A stretch of DNA of 49,681 bases from Acidobacteriota bacterium (GTDB lineage Bacteria > Acidobacteriota > Terriglobia > Acidiferrales > UBA7541). The stretch lies in NCBI GenBank assembly GCA_003167215.1, contig PMTV01000027.1, positions 1 through 49,681 of the forward strand, read 5' to 3'. The notes under the pieces were generated by a model. It made no database searches and was not told the DNA's origin. It worked only from the letters and a program-made list of their open reading frames with translations. The position numbers were made by a program, and so were the translations under genes. Shown here one piece after another: positions 14,435 to 21,029 of the stretch (position 1 is the stretch's first letter; each line of letters begins with the position of its first letter).

Positions 14435-17400
14435 TTACCAGTTGACCTTTGCGCCAAAGAGAACTGACCGCCTCGTGCTTGGGAATAGGCTCGGGTTCCC
14501 AAAGCCGGTCTCGAAGCTGGAAAAACCCGCGTCGTCGATAAAGGGATCAACGCTGGAGTAATTGTTATGGTTGAAAGCGTTGAGCATCGTCGTGCGGAAC
14601 TGAACGTTTGAACGCTCGTTGATTTTGAACGATTTGACTATCCCGATGTTGGAAATATTCGTTTTGGCGTCCTTCAAAGTGTTCCGTCCCACGTTGCCGA
14701 AGGGCGTGCCAAATATTTGCTGCGATTCCCCGCCATTTGTGATGAAGCGAACCTGCTTGTTCGTTACCTGCGTCGCGGTGCCGCCGCCGGTCTGGTTCAT
14801 GACGTTATAGCTAATTAGCGTATTGGCTGGCAGTAAGCAAGCGGGGATAACAGGAGCAGGAGGCGGGGCTTGGAAGAGCGCGCACCCGTCTGCGGCATAA
14901 ATTCCCACTTGCCCCACTGGCGCGCTCGAGCTTCCCAGGAATGGCCGTGCGGTTTCGTACGTGCCGATAAAAGCGTTGTCAAATGACACGTCGCCGCCTA
15001 CTCCGCCGCTGAAATAGCTCGAGAAGTCTTGGACGGCAGTGTAGGGCTGGCCGGAGGAGAGGATGTAGTTGGCCGAAAAAGCCCACCCGCCGAGCAGGTG
15101 TCCCACCACTCCGGACTGCGAGCGGTAGAACGGAAGCTGCTCATAAACGTTCAAAGTGAAGGCTTGCGGAATGTTCAATCCGGATAATCCGTTCTCGGCG
15201 GACGTGAAGTTGAGAGGATTTTGCGAGAACGCCAAGGTAGTCGCTCCGCCAAAGGTGCTGAATATTTCACTGGCGTTGTCGGTCGTCTTGCTCCAGGTAT
15301 AGTTGGCCGTCATGGTCAGTTGTTTGTAGAGATTCGTTGCGCGAAACTGAACTTGCAACCCATTGTAATCGGAATACGCGGTGTTGGTCCGCTCCCGCAG
15401 AACGCCCTCATTGCAATTCACGCGTCCTATTGCATTCGGCACAACCGCATCCGCCGCAGGGCAAGGCGTTACGTTAGCGGGCAGAGCGCTCGGGAACACT
15501 GCCGCAGTGTCCGCAATGAAAGGATTTGCGTTGATGGATTGGAACAGATTTCCGCCGTGGTTTCCGACGTAGCGAGCCTCGACGGCGGTCGCGTTCGAAA
15601 TCTGCCTCTGGACTCCGAGAGACCAGCTTTGAACCATATCCGGACCAAAATGCGGTGTGACAGTTGTTTGGTCAAAGTCCCGCGGGTCGGCGACCCCGGT
15701 TACAAGAGACGGAGCAAGCAGCGAGCGCACGGCTGGTCCGTTGGGAACTGCAGGCAGCGAATTGGTAACGTCACCGCTAATAGGATCTACCGTCAGACCT
15801 ACCGTCTGCGCGAGCACGACAGGCGCTGAAGTTGAGATGTTGAGGTAGATGTTGTACACCGGCGGATCGTACGACAGTCTGTACCCACCCCGAACCACTG
15901 TCTTCCCGTTCCCACCCGTCAGCCAGTTATCCATGCTCGGGCTCCAGGCGAACCCAACGCTGGGACCCCAGCTATTCTTGGGAGCTGGAATTTCAGGAAA
16001 CGTGGTAACCGATGTTGGCAGGGCGGGATTCCATAGTGGTATCTTTAGGCTGTCGACAGTTTCATTGTGGAAGAGATTCGCCGGCTGGCCATAGTAAGAC
16101 CAAGTCAGACCGAGATTCAACGTCAAGTTCGGCCTCAACTTGTAATCGTTCTGGACGTACAGGAATGTGTCCTTTTCGCTGAAGTCGATTCTGGGGTTTC
16201 CGTCCGAAACATTAATGTGGTTTGGAACGTTACACGCGAACGCCGAAAGCGCATCCAAGAATCCACCCGGCGCGACCGTGCAATCCGGGGTGACTACGTT
16301 TGTCGCGCCGGTATTGGTAAACGCCGCAAAGTTGTACGTGCCGTTATAGTTCGGAAGGAATACGTTGGGAGACTTCTGGTAGGTGAAATTCACACCTGCT
16401 TTCCACTGGCTCTTCCCGTGGACGTAACTCCACTGGTCCTGAACCTGATAGTTATTCACAATGCGGCCCTGTGGCGCGTTGTCGGCCGGTCCAAAGCCAA
16501 GAATGGATGGTCCTCCCGAGTTCGTAATTCCGATACTTGCCAGTGCGTTTTCAATATTGCCCTGAACCGGGACCGTGTTCCCGATCGAATTGCCGCCAAA
16601 TTCGGTGTTCTGCCGGCCATAAGACAGCCGAAGCTCGTTCGTCATAGACGGCGAAATCGTGTGAGTCCAGCCAATCAGCCCGGTTTGGCTGCGGCTCGGA
16701 ACTGATGCCGGATAACCCGCTGCTGCTGTCCCGAATGGGTCGCCGTCAATGGAATTTGCATAGTTGTAGATATAGCGCAGGTACACTCTGTCCTTTGAAT
16801 ATTGGAAATCGGAGCGGCCGATGAAATCGTATTCGTGAAAGGGAGTGCCTAGAGTCCTCTGGACGCCGTTGAATTCCACAACACACGACGGGTTGGTGCT
16901 GGAGCCGATAAGTGTGAGGTCCTGCGCCGTACCAAGGGGCGTCGGGTTCCCTGCTCCTATTCCATAGGGTCCAAAGGTCCGCAACGCCGCTACGCTGGCG
17001 CTATTCGGATAGCAAGCCGCCAACTCCCCCAAGCCAACGGGCGTGGGAGTCAAGGAGCCGCTTTGGAACACCGAATTCGACTCGATAATCTGCGTGTCAA
17101 ACCCGCCAAAAACGAAGACGTGGTCTTTCACCACGGGACCGCCGATTGTCGTACTGGCAAACACATTGTTGAACCAAGGTGGTTCCGTTAGGTCGTTGAA
17201 TGGTTCCTTCTGTGTATTCTCCAGGCTGGTCAGGACTGAGTTGCCTTCGGCTCCGTTGATATTGCCGTGCCAGTTGTTAGTGCCCGATGGAGTCACCAGG
17301 TTGACCACGGAACCGGAGTTGCGTCCATACTCAGCACCGAAGTTGTTGGTTGTAACCTGGTATTCCTGAACGAAGTCAGGGTTTGAAAGGAACAGCGAGG

Positions 17401-18055
17401 GTCCGGCAACCGAGTTGTCGTTGTTATTCTGACCGTCGATTTGTTGGTCGTTATTCCGGCCGCGAATACCGTCCACCGAAAACCCCACTCCGTTAGAATT
17501 CGAAAAAGTGTTGTCGCGCGTCATATTGACGCCGGGAATTTGCAGGGCGAGGAAATCCATTCCCTCGTTCTCCTGCAAACCAGCAAAACTCGTGATCTGT
17601 TGCGTGGTGAACGTGGTAGAGACCTGGGCCTCAGTTGTTTCCAGCAAGGGGGGAGCTTCAGTGACTTCCACGGTGACAGTGGAAGCGCCGATGGCCAATT
17701 TGATCAATCCTACGCCCTGGTCCGTGCCAGCTGCTACCTCGACGTTATTCACCACGTACTTGCTGAAACTCGGCTTCGTAAACTCCAAGCTGTACGTTCC
17801 GATCTGCAACTCCGAGACCCGGAATAATCCGGCACCGTCCGTTGAAGTGGTTGCAACGGACCCCGTTCCGGTATTGATGACCCGGACTTGCACGCCAGGG
17901 ACGACCGCGCCTGATGCGTCGATCGTGGTACCCGATATGGACCCGCTGGACACTTGCGCACGGGTTGGAGCTCCCGTCAGAAGAATCAGCGCCAAAACGG
18001 CCAGAGTACCCCACACACCTAGGCGTGCTGCGCGACTTAAAGAGAATGTGTTCAC
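14435..18055 (-). CDS. Oar-like TonB-dependent outer-membrane receptor with carboxypeptidase-regulatory domain
   Basis: This is a 1206-residue protein. I chose the GTG at 18055, preceded by AGGGGGAG, because it opens directly into a signal peptide (VNTFSLSRAARLGVW... to APTRAQ). The frame continues 48 codons upstream, but with no signal-like sequence. Residues about 35-120 form a carboxypeptidase-regulatory (Ig-like) domain (GSISGTTIDASGAVVPGVQV). Then come a plug-like region (NGVGFSVDGIRGRNNDQQIDG) and a very long barrel ending in an aromatic residue (GAKVNW), as outer-membrane proteins do. This architecture is greatly expanded in Acidobacteria and is thought to import oligosaccharides or peptides. 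Its substrate is unknown. No TonB/ExbB genes are in the window. Confidence 0.9.
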   Translation of the reverse strand: MNTFSLSRAARLGVWGTLAVLALILLTGAPTRAQVSSGSISGTTIDASGAVVPGVQVRVINTGTGSVATTSTDGAGLFRVSELQIGTYSLEFTKPSFSKYVVNNVEVAAGTDQGVGLIKLAIGASTVTVEVTEAPPLLETTEAQVSTTFTTQQITSFAGLQENEGMDFLALQIPGVNMTRDNTFSNSNGVGFSVDGIRGRNNDQQIDGQNNNDNSVAGPSLFLSNPDFVQEYQVTTNNFGAEYGRNSGSVVNLVTPSGTNNWHGNINGAEGNSVLTSLENTQKEPFNDLTEPPWFNNVFASTTIGGPVVKDHVFVFGGFDTQIIESNSVFQSGSLTPTPVGLGELAACYPNSASVAALRTFGPYGIGAGNPTPLGTAQDLTLIGSSTNPSCVVEFNGVQRTLGTPFHEYDFIGRSDFQYSKDRVYLRYIYNYANSIDGDPFGTAAAGYPASVPSRSQTGLIGWTHTISPSMTNELRLSYGRQNTEFGGNSIGNTVPVQGNIENALASIGITNSGGPSILGFGPADNAPQGRIVNNYQVQDQWSYVHGKSQWKAGVNFTYQKSPNVFLPNYNGTYNFAAFTNTGATNVVTPDCTVAPGGFLDALSAFACNVPNHINVSDGNPRIDFSEKDTFLYVQNDYKLRPNLTLNLGLTWSYYGQPANLFHNETVDSLKIPLWNPALPTSVTTFPEIPAPKNSWGPSVGFAWSPSMDNWLTGGNGKTVVRGGYRLSYDPPVYNIYLNISTSAPVVLAQTVGLTVDPISGDVTNSLPAVPNGPAVRSLLAPSLVTGVADPRDFDQTTVTPHFGPDMVQSWSLGVQRQISNATAVEARYVGNHGGNLFQSINANPFIADTAAVFPSALPANVTPCPAADAVVPNAIGRVNCNEGVLRERTNTAYSDYNGLQVQFRATNLYKQLTMTANYTWSKTTDNASEIFSTFGGATTLAFSQNPLNFTSAENGLSGLNIPQAFTLNVYEQLPFYRSQSGVVGHLLGGWAFSANYILSSGQPYTAVQDFSSYFSGGVGGDVSFDNAFIGTYETARPFLGSSSAPVGQVGIYAADGCALFQAPPPAPVIPACLLPANTLISYNVMNQTGGGTATQVTNKQVRFITNGGESQQIFGTPFGNVGRNTLKDAKTNISNIGIVKSFKINERSNVQFRTTMLNAFNHNNYSSVDPFIDDAGFSSFETGFGNPSLFPSTRRSVLFGAKVNW

Positions 18056-18218
18056 GGACTCCCCCTTTTCAATTTTCCTTTGAGTTCTGCTGAGCGCTGG
18101 CAAGAGATCGAAATTTCGAGAAACTACGGCAGGTTGGTCTTGGATTGAATTCAGACAGGAACGGTCAAATGAAATACGTCGCACGTTATAGTCCCCCACC
18201 CCGAGGAAACTTTAGTGC

Positions 18219-18677: not shown

Positions 18678-19895
18678 ATGAGCCCGCTATCGAAGAAAAT
18701 TGTCATCATACTATCTCTCGTCGTGCTCGCCTTTGTGGCTACCGGTTATCTTCGCGCCCGCTCGAACGACGAAAAAGCCTACCGCGCCCTCACCGTGTAC
18801 AGCGAAGTGCTGGACAAGGTCCAGAACGATTACGTGGACGACCCGAACATGGCTCAAGTAACCAGCGGAGCGCTTCACGGATTGCTAGATTCCCTGGACT
18901 CGGAATCTGCTTACCTTAGCCCGCTCGAATACAAGGATTACAAAGAAAAGAGCGCTACGAAGGCTTCTGGTGAGACGGGCCTTGTGCTTATCCGGCGCGG
19001 ATACATCGCGGTGCTCGGATCCTTACCGGATACGCCGGCCGCGAAAGCCGGTTTGCGCATCGGCGATATCATCGAAAAAATCGCGGGCTTTAGCACGGGA
19101 CAAATGGCAATCGGTCAGGCTGAACTTCTGCTTCGTGGCGCCCCCGGGACCGTGGTGAAGATCTCCGTAATTCGCCGTGGAAAGACGGAACCGCAAGACC
19201 TAGACCTGACGCTTGAAAAACTCCCTGCACCCAAGCTTCTCGAAGACAAGCTCCAGGGTGATATCGCCTACCTCCGCGTTCCAAAGTTTGACGCAGGTAT
19301 GACAAAACAAATTCGCGAAAAGCTCGTACAGTTTCAGCATCAGGGCGTCAAGAAACTGATTCTCGACCTGCGCGATTGCCCTTCCGGTGAAGATCAAGAA
19401 GGAATTGCTACCGCCCAGCTTTTTGTTTCTTCCGGAACCATCACTACACTCAAAGGTCAAACCGTCAATCCCGTTGTTTCCACAGCGGAACCGTCGAAAG
19501 TCGTCTGGACGGATCCAGTATCGGTGTTGATTGGAATCGGAACTGCCGGACCGGCTGAAATCGTGGCGGGCGCCATTTCCGGTAATCATCGCGGAGACAC
19601 TGTGGGCGACCGCACTTATGGCACAGCATCGACACAGAAGCTGATTGAAATGGATGATGGTTCTGCAATGATTTTGACCGTCGCGAATTACTACACTCCG
19701 GACAACAAGGAAATTCCCGCCAACGGAGTTGCGGCCACCGCCGAGGTTCATCCCTCGATCGATGAGGTTATTGCCGCAAGCGATCAGAACCAGCCGGTTC
19801 CGTCCGAGAAGCCCGTTTCTGCCGACGATCCCGTGATCAAGAGAGCCATTGAAATTCTGCAGGGTGCTGCGACCCCAGCGCGAAAGGCTGCGTAG
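18678..19895 (+). CDS. S41 (CtpA/Prc-like) family protein lacking both catalytic residues
   Basis: This is a 405-residue protein with one N-terminal membrane anchor (about 7-27), a PDZ domain (about 90-180: GYIAVLGSLPDTPAAKAGLRIGD) and an S41 peptidase core. The known family uses a Ser in an SASAxEI-type motif and a Lys exactly 25 residues later in a FGKG-type motif. Here the corresponding stretches read TAGPAEIVAG and TYGTASTQ. The Ser position is Gly291 and the Lys position is Thr316, again exactly 25 apart, so the alignment is unambiguous. It is therefore expected to be inactive as a protease and may act as a PDZ scaffold. AAAAGGAAAAG provides the ribosome site. The deacetylase-family gene follows by 6 bases. 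Confidence 0.88.
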   Translation: MSPLSKKIVIILSLVVLAFVATGYLRARSNDEKAYRALTVYSEVLDKVQNDYVDDPNMAQVTSGALHGLLDSLDSESAYLSPLEYKDYKEKSATKASGETGLVLIRRGYIAVLGSLPDTPAAKAGLRIGDIIEKIAGFSTGQMAIGQAELLLRGAPGTVVKISVIRRGKTEPQDLDLTLEKLPAPKLLEDKLQGDIAYLRVPKFDAGMTKQIREKLVQFQHQGVKKLILDLRDCPSGEDQEGIATAQLFVSSGTITTLKGQTVNPVVSTAEPSKVVWTDPVSVLIGIGTAGPAEIVAGAISGNHRGDTVGDRTYGTASTQKLIEMDDGSAMILTVANYYTPDNKEIPANGVAATAEVHPSIDEVIAASDQNQPVPSEKPVSADDPVIKRAIEILQGAATPARKAA

Positions 19896-19901
19896 TTCCT
19901 C

Positions 19902-21029
19902 GTGAAGGTGCGTCCGGGACCTGCCTTCCCGGGGGTCACAGATGCGCCGCGGATTCTGATTCTTCTCACCGCAATAATCGTTCTCTTCCTCGGCGGTTGC
20001 GGAAAGAAAAAAATCTCGAAGGCTGAGCTCCGCGAAGTTACCAGCGAAATCGTCACCGCCGCGCAAAAGATTTCCGGACACAAATCAGAGGTTACGATTC
20101 GGCCCGAGCTTCAGCTTTCGAAGAATGGAACGCCGGGGAAATTAGCCGCGGATAACGTTTACGTCTCGCTCTCCGACGCCTCGCAAGCCGGAGCGATCGC
20201 AAAGGCGCTGGATGAAATCGCGCGCCGTCATGAACTCTCGGTCAGAGAAACTACTTCGAACGGGATCATGCGGTTTGACTATGTAACCGGCGGCATTCGC
20301 ACACATACGATTCACGTGGTCATACCGCTCACGGCTCGCTCAAATATTGCTATGACACAGGGCCGCCGGGATGCGCGGCTCGCGATCATTATTGATGATC
20401 TGGGCTACGACCGCGAGGCCGCCGATTCGCTGCTCGCACTCGGCTTTCCGCTCACCGTTTCCGTCCTGCCGCATTTGCCGTTGTCCACCGAAGTCGCCGA
20501 AGAGGCTTACCGGCGGGGAGATCAAGTGATGCTGCATCTTCCGATGCAGTCCGAGAACGCCACAGCAAAAACAGAGGAAGTCGAGCTACGAGTGGGAATG
20601 AACGAACAGCAGGTGGATTCGGCATTAGCCGGAATGCTGGAGACGGTGCCGCATGCCGTTGGCGTGAACAATCATCAAGGATCCCGCGCGACGGCAGATC
20701 CTGCGTTAATGGCCGCGTTGATGCCGGAACTGCGCCGGCGCGGTCTGTTTTTCGTCGATAGCCGCACCATGGCTTCGACGGTGGCCTACAGCACGGCTGA
20801 GCGCTTGGGAGTGCGCGCCGCCTCGCGAAGGGTATTTCTCGATGACTCGGAGAATCGCGAAGCAATCCTCAAGCAGCTTGAACTTGCCGCTCACGATGCG
20901 GAACGCGAGGGATTCGCAATCGCAATTGGACATCCAAGGTCCGACACGATCGCCGTTCTTGCTCTCGATCTCCCGCGACTCGCATCCCGCGGCATCCACT
21001 TGGTGTTTGTTTCGGACGTGGTTCAGTGA
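19902..21029 (+). CDS. Divergent polysaccharide deacetylase (YibQ-like) lipoprotein
   Basis: This is a 375-residue protein. The GTG at 19902 lies 6 bases after the S41-like stop and leads into a hydrophobic segment with the lipobox LGGC (Cys33), so it is probably a lipoprotein. Residues about 155-370 match the divergent polysaccharide deacetylase family: LAIIIDDLGYD, LPHLPLS, VMLHLPMQ, GVNNHQGSRAT, FFVDSRT and the closing IAIGHPR. The family folds like NodB-type deacetylases. Its substrate is not established, but in several bacteria the gene sits beside a CtpA-type protease and the envelope division protein EnvC. That matches the pairing here with a dead S41 protein, which points to envelope or peptidoglycan work. 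Confidence 0.87.
   Translation: MKVRPGPAFPGVTDAPRILILLTAIIVLFLGGCGKKKISKAELREVTSEIVTAAQKISGHKSEVTIRPELQLSKNGTPGKLAADNVYVSLSDASQAGAIAKALDEIARRHELSVRETTSNGIMRFDYVTGGIRTHTIHVVIPLTARSNIAMTQGRRDARLAIIIDDLGYDREAADSLLALGFPLTVSVLPHLPLSTEVAEEAYRRGDQVMLHLPMQSENATAKTEEVELRVGMNEQQVDSALAGMLETVPHAVGVNNHQGSRATADPALMAALMPELRRRGLFFVDSRTMASTVAYSTAERLGVRAASRRVFLDDSENREAILKQLELAAHDAEREGFAIAIGHPRSDTIAVLALDLPRLASRGIHLVFVSDVVQ

Follow-up and report, generated by a model that had tools for sequence, protein, structure and literature searches.

A CtpA-type S41 protein without catalytic serine and lysine, kept through most of the Acidobacteriota: a probable scaffold or regulator of peptidoglycan remodelling

One gene in the 49,681-nucleotide stretch of acidobacterial DNA analysed here (the window) encodes a protease-like protein of the CtpA/Prc type that appeared to have lost its catalytic residues. 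This raises the question whether a protease has decayed at this locus or whether a protein that no longer cuts has been maintained in another role. The original prediction favoured a maintained pseudoenzyme, with an undamaged frame and an intact PDZ domain, which might scaffold or regulate cell-wall enzymes. The open reading frame was intact over its 405 codons, and the encoded protein covers the entire 165-position model of Peptidase_S41 (PF03572) in Pfam with 121.6 bits. A hydrophobic anchor at the N-terminus is followed by a PDZ domain and then by the full S41 domain. The features of the gene and of its downstream neighbour are listed in the table. Upstream, on the opposite strand, window positions 14435-18199 encode a large TonB-dependent-receptor-like outer-membrane protein with a carboxypeptidase-regulatory-like domain at its N-terminus.

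Table. Positions in the window of the pseudoprotease gene, the adjoining deacetylase gene and their parts
Feature	Positions	Strand	Basis or remark
CtpA-type S41 pseudoprotease CDS	18678..19895	+	405 aa, ORF undamaged
N-terminal membrane anchor and long helix, residues 1-51	18678..18830	+	sequence; AlphaFold2 helix 3-51
Glu76 replacing active-site His (= His84, P. aeruginosa CtpA)	18903..18905	+	residue comparison
PDZ domain, residues 97-184	18966..19229	+	Pfam PDZ_6; structural matches
S41 core domain, residues 195-357	19260..19748	+	Pfam PF03572
Gly291 (GGA) replacing catalytic Ser	19548..19550	+	alignment, orthologues
Thr316 (ACA) replacing catalytic Lys	19623..19625	+	alignment, orthologues
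Gln320, retained (= CtpB Gln338)	19635..19637	+	82/82 family orthologues
C-terminal tail, end -KAA	19866..19892	+	conserved among orthologues
Divergent polysaccharide deacetylase CDS (YibQ/SddA family, PF04748), putative lipoprotein	19902..21029	+	Pfam
SddA-like lipobox LGGC, residues 30-33	19989..20000	+	sequence
Asp165-Asp166, SddA metal site	20394..20399	+	= E. coli SddA D31/D32 (PMC12440217)
His212, SddA metal site	20535..20537	+	homologue comparison
His258, SddA metal site	20673..20675	+	homologue comparison

The window protein was aligned residue by residue with H. pylori CtpA. Ser300 of that enzyme corresponds to Gly291, Lys325 to Thr316 and Gln329 to Gln320, and the 25-residue spacing of the Ser-Lys pair is preserved between Gly291 and Thr316. 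The nucleophile motif SASASE reads TAGPAE, with Gly291 on the serine, and the lysine motif FGKGSVQ reads YGTASTQ, with Thr316 on the lysine. The 89 genomes of the window's GTDB family (Ca. Acidiferrales, Terriglobia, Acidobacteriota) were then searched, and an orthologue, here called the short CTP, was found in 83 of them. Gly was present at position 291 in all 82 orthologues covering the site, and Lys was present at position 316 in none of them (33 had Leu, 26 Thr and 12 Ser, with Ala, Ile, Met or Asn among the others). The replacement of both residues, as originally described, was confirmed by the alignment and by the orthologues. All four Gly codons were used at position 291 in 78 orthologues, with no other residue, indicating that the glycine has been held by selection and not merely inherited by recent descent.

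The account of a lost Ser-Lys dyad proved correct but incomplete, since the third active-site residue, His84 or Gln331 in P. aeruginosa CtpA, is affected as well. The histidine is replaced by Glu76, while the glutamine is retained as Gln320. At the position equivalent to His84, His occurred in none of 81 family orthologues, as compared with 14 of 14 long active CTPs. In P. aeruginosa CtpA, Gln331 is of minor importance, and either S302A or K327A singly abolishes activity in vivo (PMC11021448). As each of these two exchanges is sufficient, there is strong reason to conclude that the window protein would have no proteolytic activity.

A dyad masked by a shifted alignment was ruled out, because the residues T289, E294, G315 and Q320 flanking the motifs line up correctly in every orthologue of the family. 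The alignment with S41 proteins also placed no Ser or Lys elsewhere that could stand in for the dyad. A substitute dyad was likewise ruled out: no Lys, His or Cys reached at least 90% conservation in the set of dyad-less sequences (pseudo rows), so that none is visible. It is very improbable that peptides are still cut through other residues of the cleft, for example with Thr289 as nucleophile. Thr289 is kept in 94% of the pseudo rows, Glu294 in all of them and Gln320 in 82 of 82 family orthologues, as such a mechanism might require. Position 289 is, however, Ser or Thr in active CTPs also, where it is not the nucleophile; Thr289 is unaccompanied by a conserved Lys, His or other base, and more than 10 different residues were seen at position 316.

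The selection acting on the gene was estimated as dN/dS (Nei-Gojobori) in close relatives, with the pseudo-CtpA and SddA genes taken from the same genome pairs. The values were 0.026-0.136 for pseudo-CtpA and 0.086-0.159 for SddA, and the dead protease is therefore at least as constrained as its neighbour. The overall median of 0.34 includes saturated pairs and was set aside. Relaxed selection was not found, in agreement with the idea of a maintained pseudoenzyme. Single in-frame TGA codons in two relatives (locus L083 of genome G014 and locus L082 of genome G082) could be taken as signs of a decaying pseudogene or of a metagenome assembly error; in these two loci they probably reflect a frameshift or assembly error. 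For the gene as a whole such an explanation has next to no probability, as the frame is intact in about 80 genomes, and the dN/dS values and the four glycine codons speak against decay. The 83 genomes together with the dN/dS values thus refute pseudogene decay as well as an error of sequencing or assembly.

An AlphaFold2 model of the window protein was built from a 52-row alignment, an earlier 26-row model being weaker, and reached a pLDDT of 91.5 and a pTM of 0.86. It matched H. pylori CtpA with a Z score of 38.0 (346 residues, rmsd 3.0) and P. aeruginosa CtpA with 37.1, and it was closer to resting CtpB (4c2e, TMq 0.70) than to active CtpB (4c2c, TMq 0.55). The CtpA fold is whole in this prediction. 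With the single sequence, H. pylori CtpA was the top match in the PDB (E 3e-48) and P. aeruginosa CtpA was also among the best; with the family profile, P. aeruginosa CtpA ranked first of all solved CTPs (E 4e-70). The PDZ domain, which had been called intact, is so in its fold, matching CTP and DegS PDZ domains at Z 13-15, but not in its peptide-binding loop, where GG[LI]G has become GExG-like; the second Gly of this carboxylate loop is present in just 14%. Arg162 in the PDZ domain of H. pylori CtpA is mostly lost in the window's family, but the window protein itself has Arg153 at this place.

The modules of interphotoreceptor retinoid-binding protein (IRBP) are non-proteolytic relatives within S41. 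By analogy, the cleft of the window protein might have been repurposed for a ligand other than a protein tail, and the changed PDZ loop and a match of IRBP modules to the model at Z 17.8 can be counted for this. IRBP nevertheless ranked far below the CtpA proteins (Z 37-38), and the complete CtpA architecture is retained, PDZ included, which leaves this explanation little credit.

The distribution of the protein was followed through the phylum in 297 drawn genomes, in 42 more divergent genomes searched by profile and in fetched loci, giving 69 families, all of them acidobacterial. A contig scan returned almost exclusively acidobacteria, one record being labelled Bacillota. This short second CtpA-type protease with its dyad gone was present in nearly every acidobacterium surveyed. 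The dyad was missing from 98 of 102 short CTP rows (about 400 aa) from the 69 acidobacterial families. Gly was the commonest replacement of Ser (82 of the 98 pseudo rows), and the lysine site held Arg, Leu, Asp, Ala, Ile, Met and more. Ser, Lys and His were jointly missing from 89 pseudo rows, and the active-site His was present in only 2 of the 98. In one family (f28) the short CTP seemed to be absent. A second, diverged pseudo-CtpA with Gly/Asp at the dyad was seen at locus L085 (genome G004, contig C3); it clusters with family f3 in the tree and was possibly acquired by transfer.

Almost all genomes examined also had a longer CTP of about 500-720 aa with intact Ser, Lys and Gln, which in the window's own genome lies on contig C13. 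Ser, Lys, His and Gln were all kept in the 14 long CTPs compared, this copy included. In a tree built with the motif residues masked and without an outgroup from other phyla, the short CTPs formed one clade against the long CTPs (bootstrap 100, SH-aLRT 100). The suggestion that the substitution might define a clade was borne out, the clade being almost phylum-wide.

The Ser+Lys exceptions among the short CTPs came from family f26 (three genomes) and family f31 (one genome). The f26 rows lie deep within the pseudo clade, beside Gly-Lys and Gly-Arg rows, and still lack the active-site His, having Phe there; the f31 row branched basally in the clade, as judged from a quick tree alone. A regain of the dyad is possible at the three f26 loci (L186, L188 and L226 in genomes G130, G342 and G117). 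The AU test rejected a pseudo-only clade excluding the f26 Ser-Lys forms (p 0.00015). The masked tree would accommodate two histories: a single loss of the dyad followed by a return of Ser and Lys in f26, or many losses in which Gly was favoured each time. More tentative, and rather doubtful at present, is the fuller history in which the CtpA of the cell-separation operon gave up catalysis early in the Acidobacteriota and turned into a non-proteolytic hub for wall remodelling, surviving its operon partners, with Ser and Lys later regained in f26. If this were true, f26 would show a protease active site rebuilt in nature. In any case these genomes allow dead and apparently intact members of one clade to be compared directly.

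The gene starting 6 bases past the stop codon of the pseudoprotease matches Polysacc_deac_2 (PF04748) with 245.8 bits, and the claim that it belongs to a family found beside CtpA held, as this is the YibQ/SddA family that neighbours envC-ctpA. The P. aeruginosa ctpA gene is flanked by envC and by PA5135, the latter being orthologous to E. coli yibQ/sddA (PMC12569750). SddA deacetylates denuded glycan strands at the septum and also modulates amidases (PMC12440217). The DDHH metal residues were kept in 142 of 142 SddA-like ORFs from the fetched loci, some of which overlap, and a lipobox-like motif was present in 60 of 68 SddA-like relatives. By these sequence features the downstream gene is an SddA/YibQ-family deacetylase with its metal site intact.

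The gene immediately upstream of the short CTP codes for an EnvC-like M23 protein in 35 of the 69 families, and the one immediately downstream for SddA in 20; both were present in 14 families, either one in 41 and neither in 28. In the window's family SddA adjoins the short CTP in 69 of the loci with room for it, and EnvC is not adjacent; the window genome has no clear EnvC orthologue beside pseudo-CtpA and no FtsX_ECD match. In 22 of 29 loci of family f2, which from named matches is probably Acidobacteriaceae, the next gene downstream has the same orientation and encodes a bifunctional PBP with transglycosylase and transpeptidase parts (observed in L096-L120, L168 and L169). Among 26 tested genomes from families keeping the short CTP, 18 had no SddA and 25 had Amidase_3. 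A function dependent on SddA alone was therefore rejected, and SddA cannot be the sole partner. Taken with the neighbour counts, this means that pseudo-CtpA outlasts SddA and that its neighbours are repeatedly peptidoglycan genes.

PDZ domains of CTPs bind short C-terminal peptides ending in Ala. The short CTPs themselves end in -AA in 71 of 82 family orthologues and, across divergent linkers, in 45 of 69 families, as compared with 3 of 222 other genes of the same loci and none of 14 long CTPs. In these 45 acidobacterial families the tail has the form -[K/R]AA and looks like a PDZ ligand or a degron. It is not a general feature of CtpA, as the end of H. pylori CtpA is APKKK according to its cloning primer. 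According to the title of entry 4c2g, CtpB was crystallised with a peptide ending in Val-Pro-Ala. The sequence of the -KAA tail suggests docking in the protein's own PDZ domain or in that of the long CTP.

The latter could mean that pseudo-CtpA regulates the long active CTP of the same cell, which would be tuned or fed through mixed oligomers or through the tail docked in its PDZ domain. The conservation of the tail, its rarity in the background and its absence from long CTPs fit this proposal, as do the presence of a long active CTP in nearly all genomes searched and the assembly of CTPs as dimers and hexamers (PMC11021448). The two paralogues are, however, just about 30% identical, their genes were not seen together, and the tail may instead serve the protein's own PDZ domain or its turnover. 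Such regulation of the paralogue is considered unlikely, though the most credible of the competing explanations.

The strong selection and the usual cell-wall-remodelling neighbours make a non-cutting scaffold or regulator the most likely function. We thus favour, with a probability of about 0.6, an ancient, clade-defining CtpA pseudoprotease that would scaffold or regulate peptidoglycan remodelling; the role originally proposed for cell-wall enzymes fits the gene neighbourhoods. The 28 families with neither neighbour, the genomes without SddA, the lack of a clear EnvC orthologue beside the gene in the window genome and the Ser-Lys members in f26 count against this reading. From the operon slot and the best profile match we infer orthology to the proteobacterial CtpA. 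The gene would be the acidobacterial form of the CtpA from the envC-ctpA-yibQ(sddA) operon, made non-proteolytic long ago and kept in that state through most of the phylum. The predicted topology of the protein places the anchor in the inner membrane and both the PDZ domain and the S41 core in the periplasm. As the active-site Ser, Lys and His are gone, it should bind and not cut. This presumed platform would gather or restrain peptidoglycan-remodelling proteins, candidates being SddA here, EnvC-like M23 proteins in other families and the bifunctional PBP in f2, and CTP proteolysis would be left to the longer paralogue of the same genome.

The closest known system is P. aeruginosa CtpA (S41A), which shares the domain order, the fold and, in many families, the operon slot between EnvC and YibQ/SddA; it differs in having Ser302, Lys327 and His84 where Gly291, Thr316 and Glu76 are found here. 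H. pylori CtpA and B. subtilis CtpB have the same fold but are active proteases. E. coli SddA (YibQ), the septal denuded-strand deacetylase, shares PF04748 and DDHH with the downstream gene; it carries a signal peptide for periplasmic export (PMC12440217), whereas the SddA-like protein here is a putative lipoprotein. In Agrobacterium, ATU2773 is an SddA homologue without Zn ligands, encoded in an envC operon, for which a regulatory role was suggested (PMC12440217). There it is the deacetylase of the operon module that is dead; in the acidobacterial module it is the protease, and the deacetylase is intact. The rhomboid pseudoproteases known as iRhoms lost their catalytic residues and were kept as regulators (PMC3149277), as is proposed here, but they are an unrelated eukaryotic family with demonstrated function. 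Pseudoproteases as such are already known. A bacterial S41 or CtpA pseudoprotease was not reported in the open-access literature searched, and to that extent a CtpA pseudoprotease appears to be new.

Work on CtpA/Prc proteases has dealt with their degradation of peptidoglycan hydrolases. That a CtpA without the dyad occurs through most of a phylum, and is more constrained than the enzyme beside it, implies that the CtpA body has an important function independent of cutting. This would bear on what active CtpA does besides proteolysis, and on the organisation of SddA, EnvC and PBPs in the Acidobacteriota, whose cell division is little studied.
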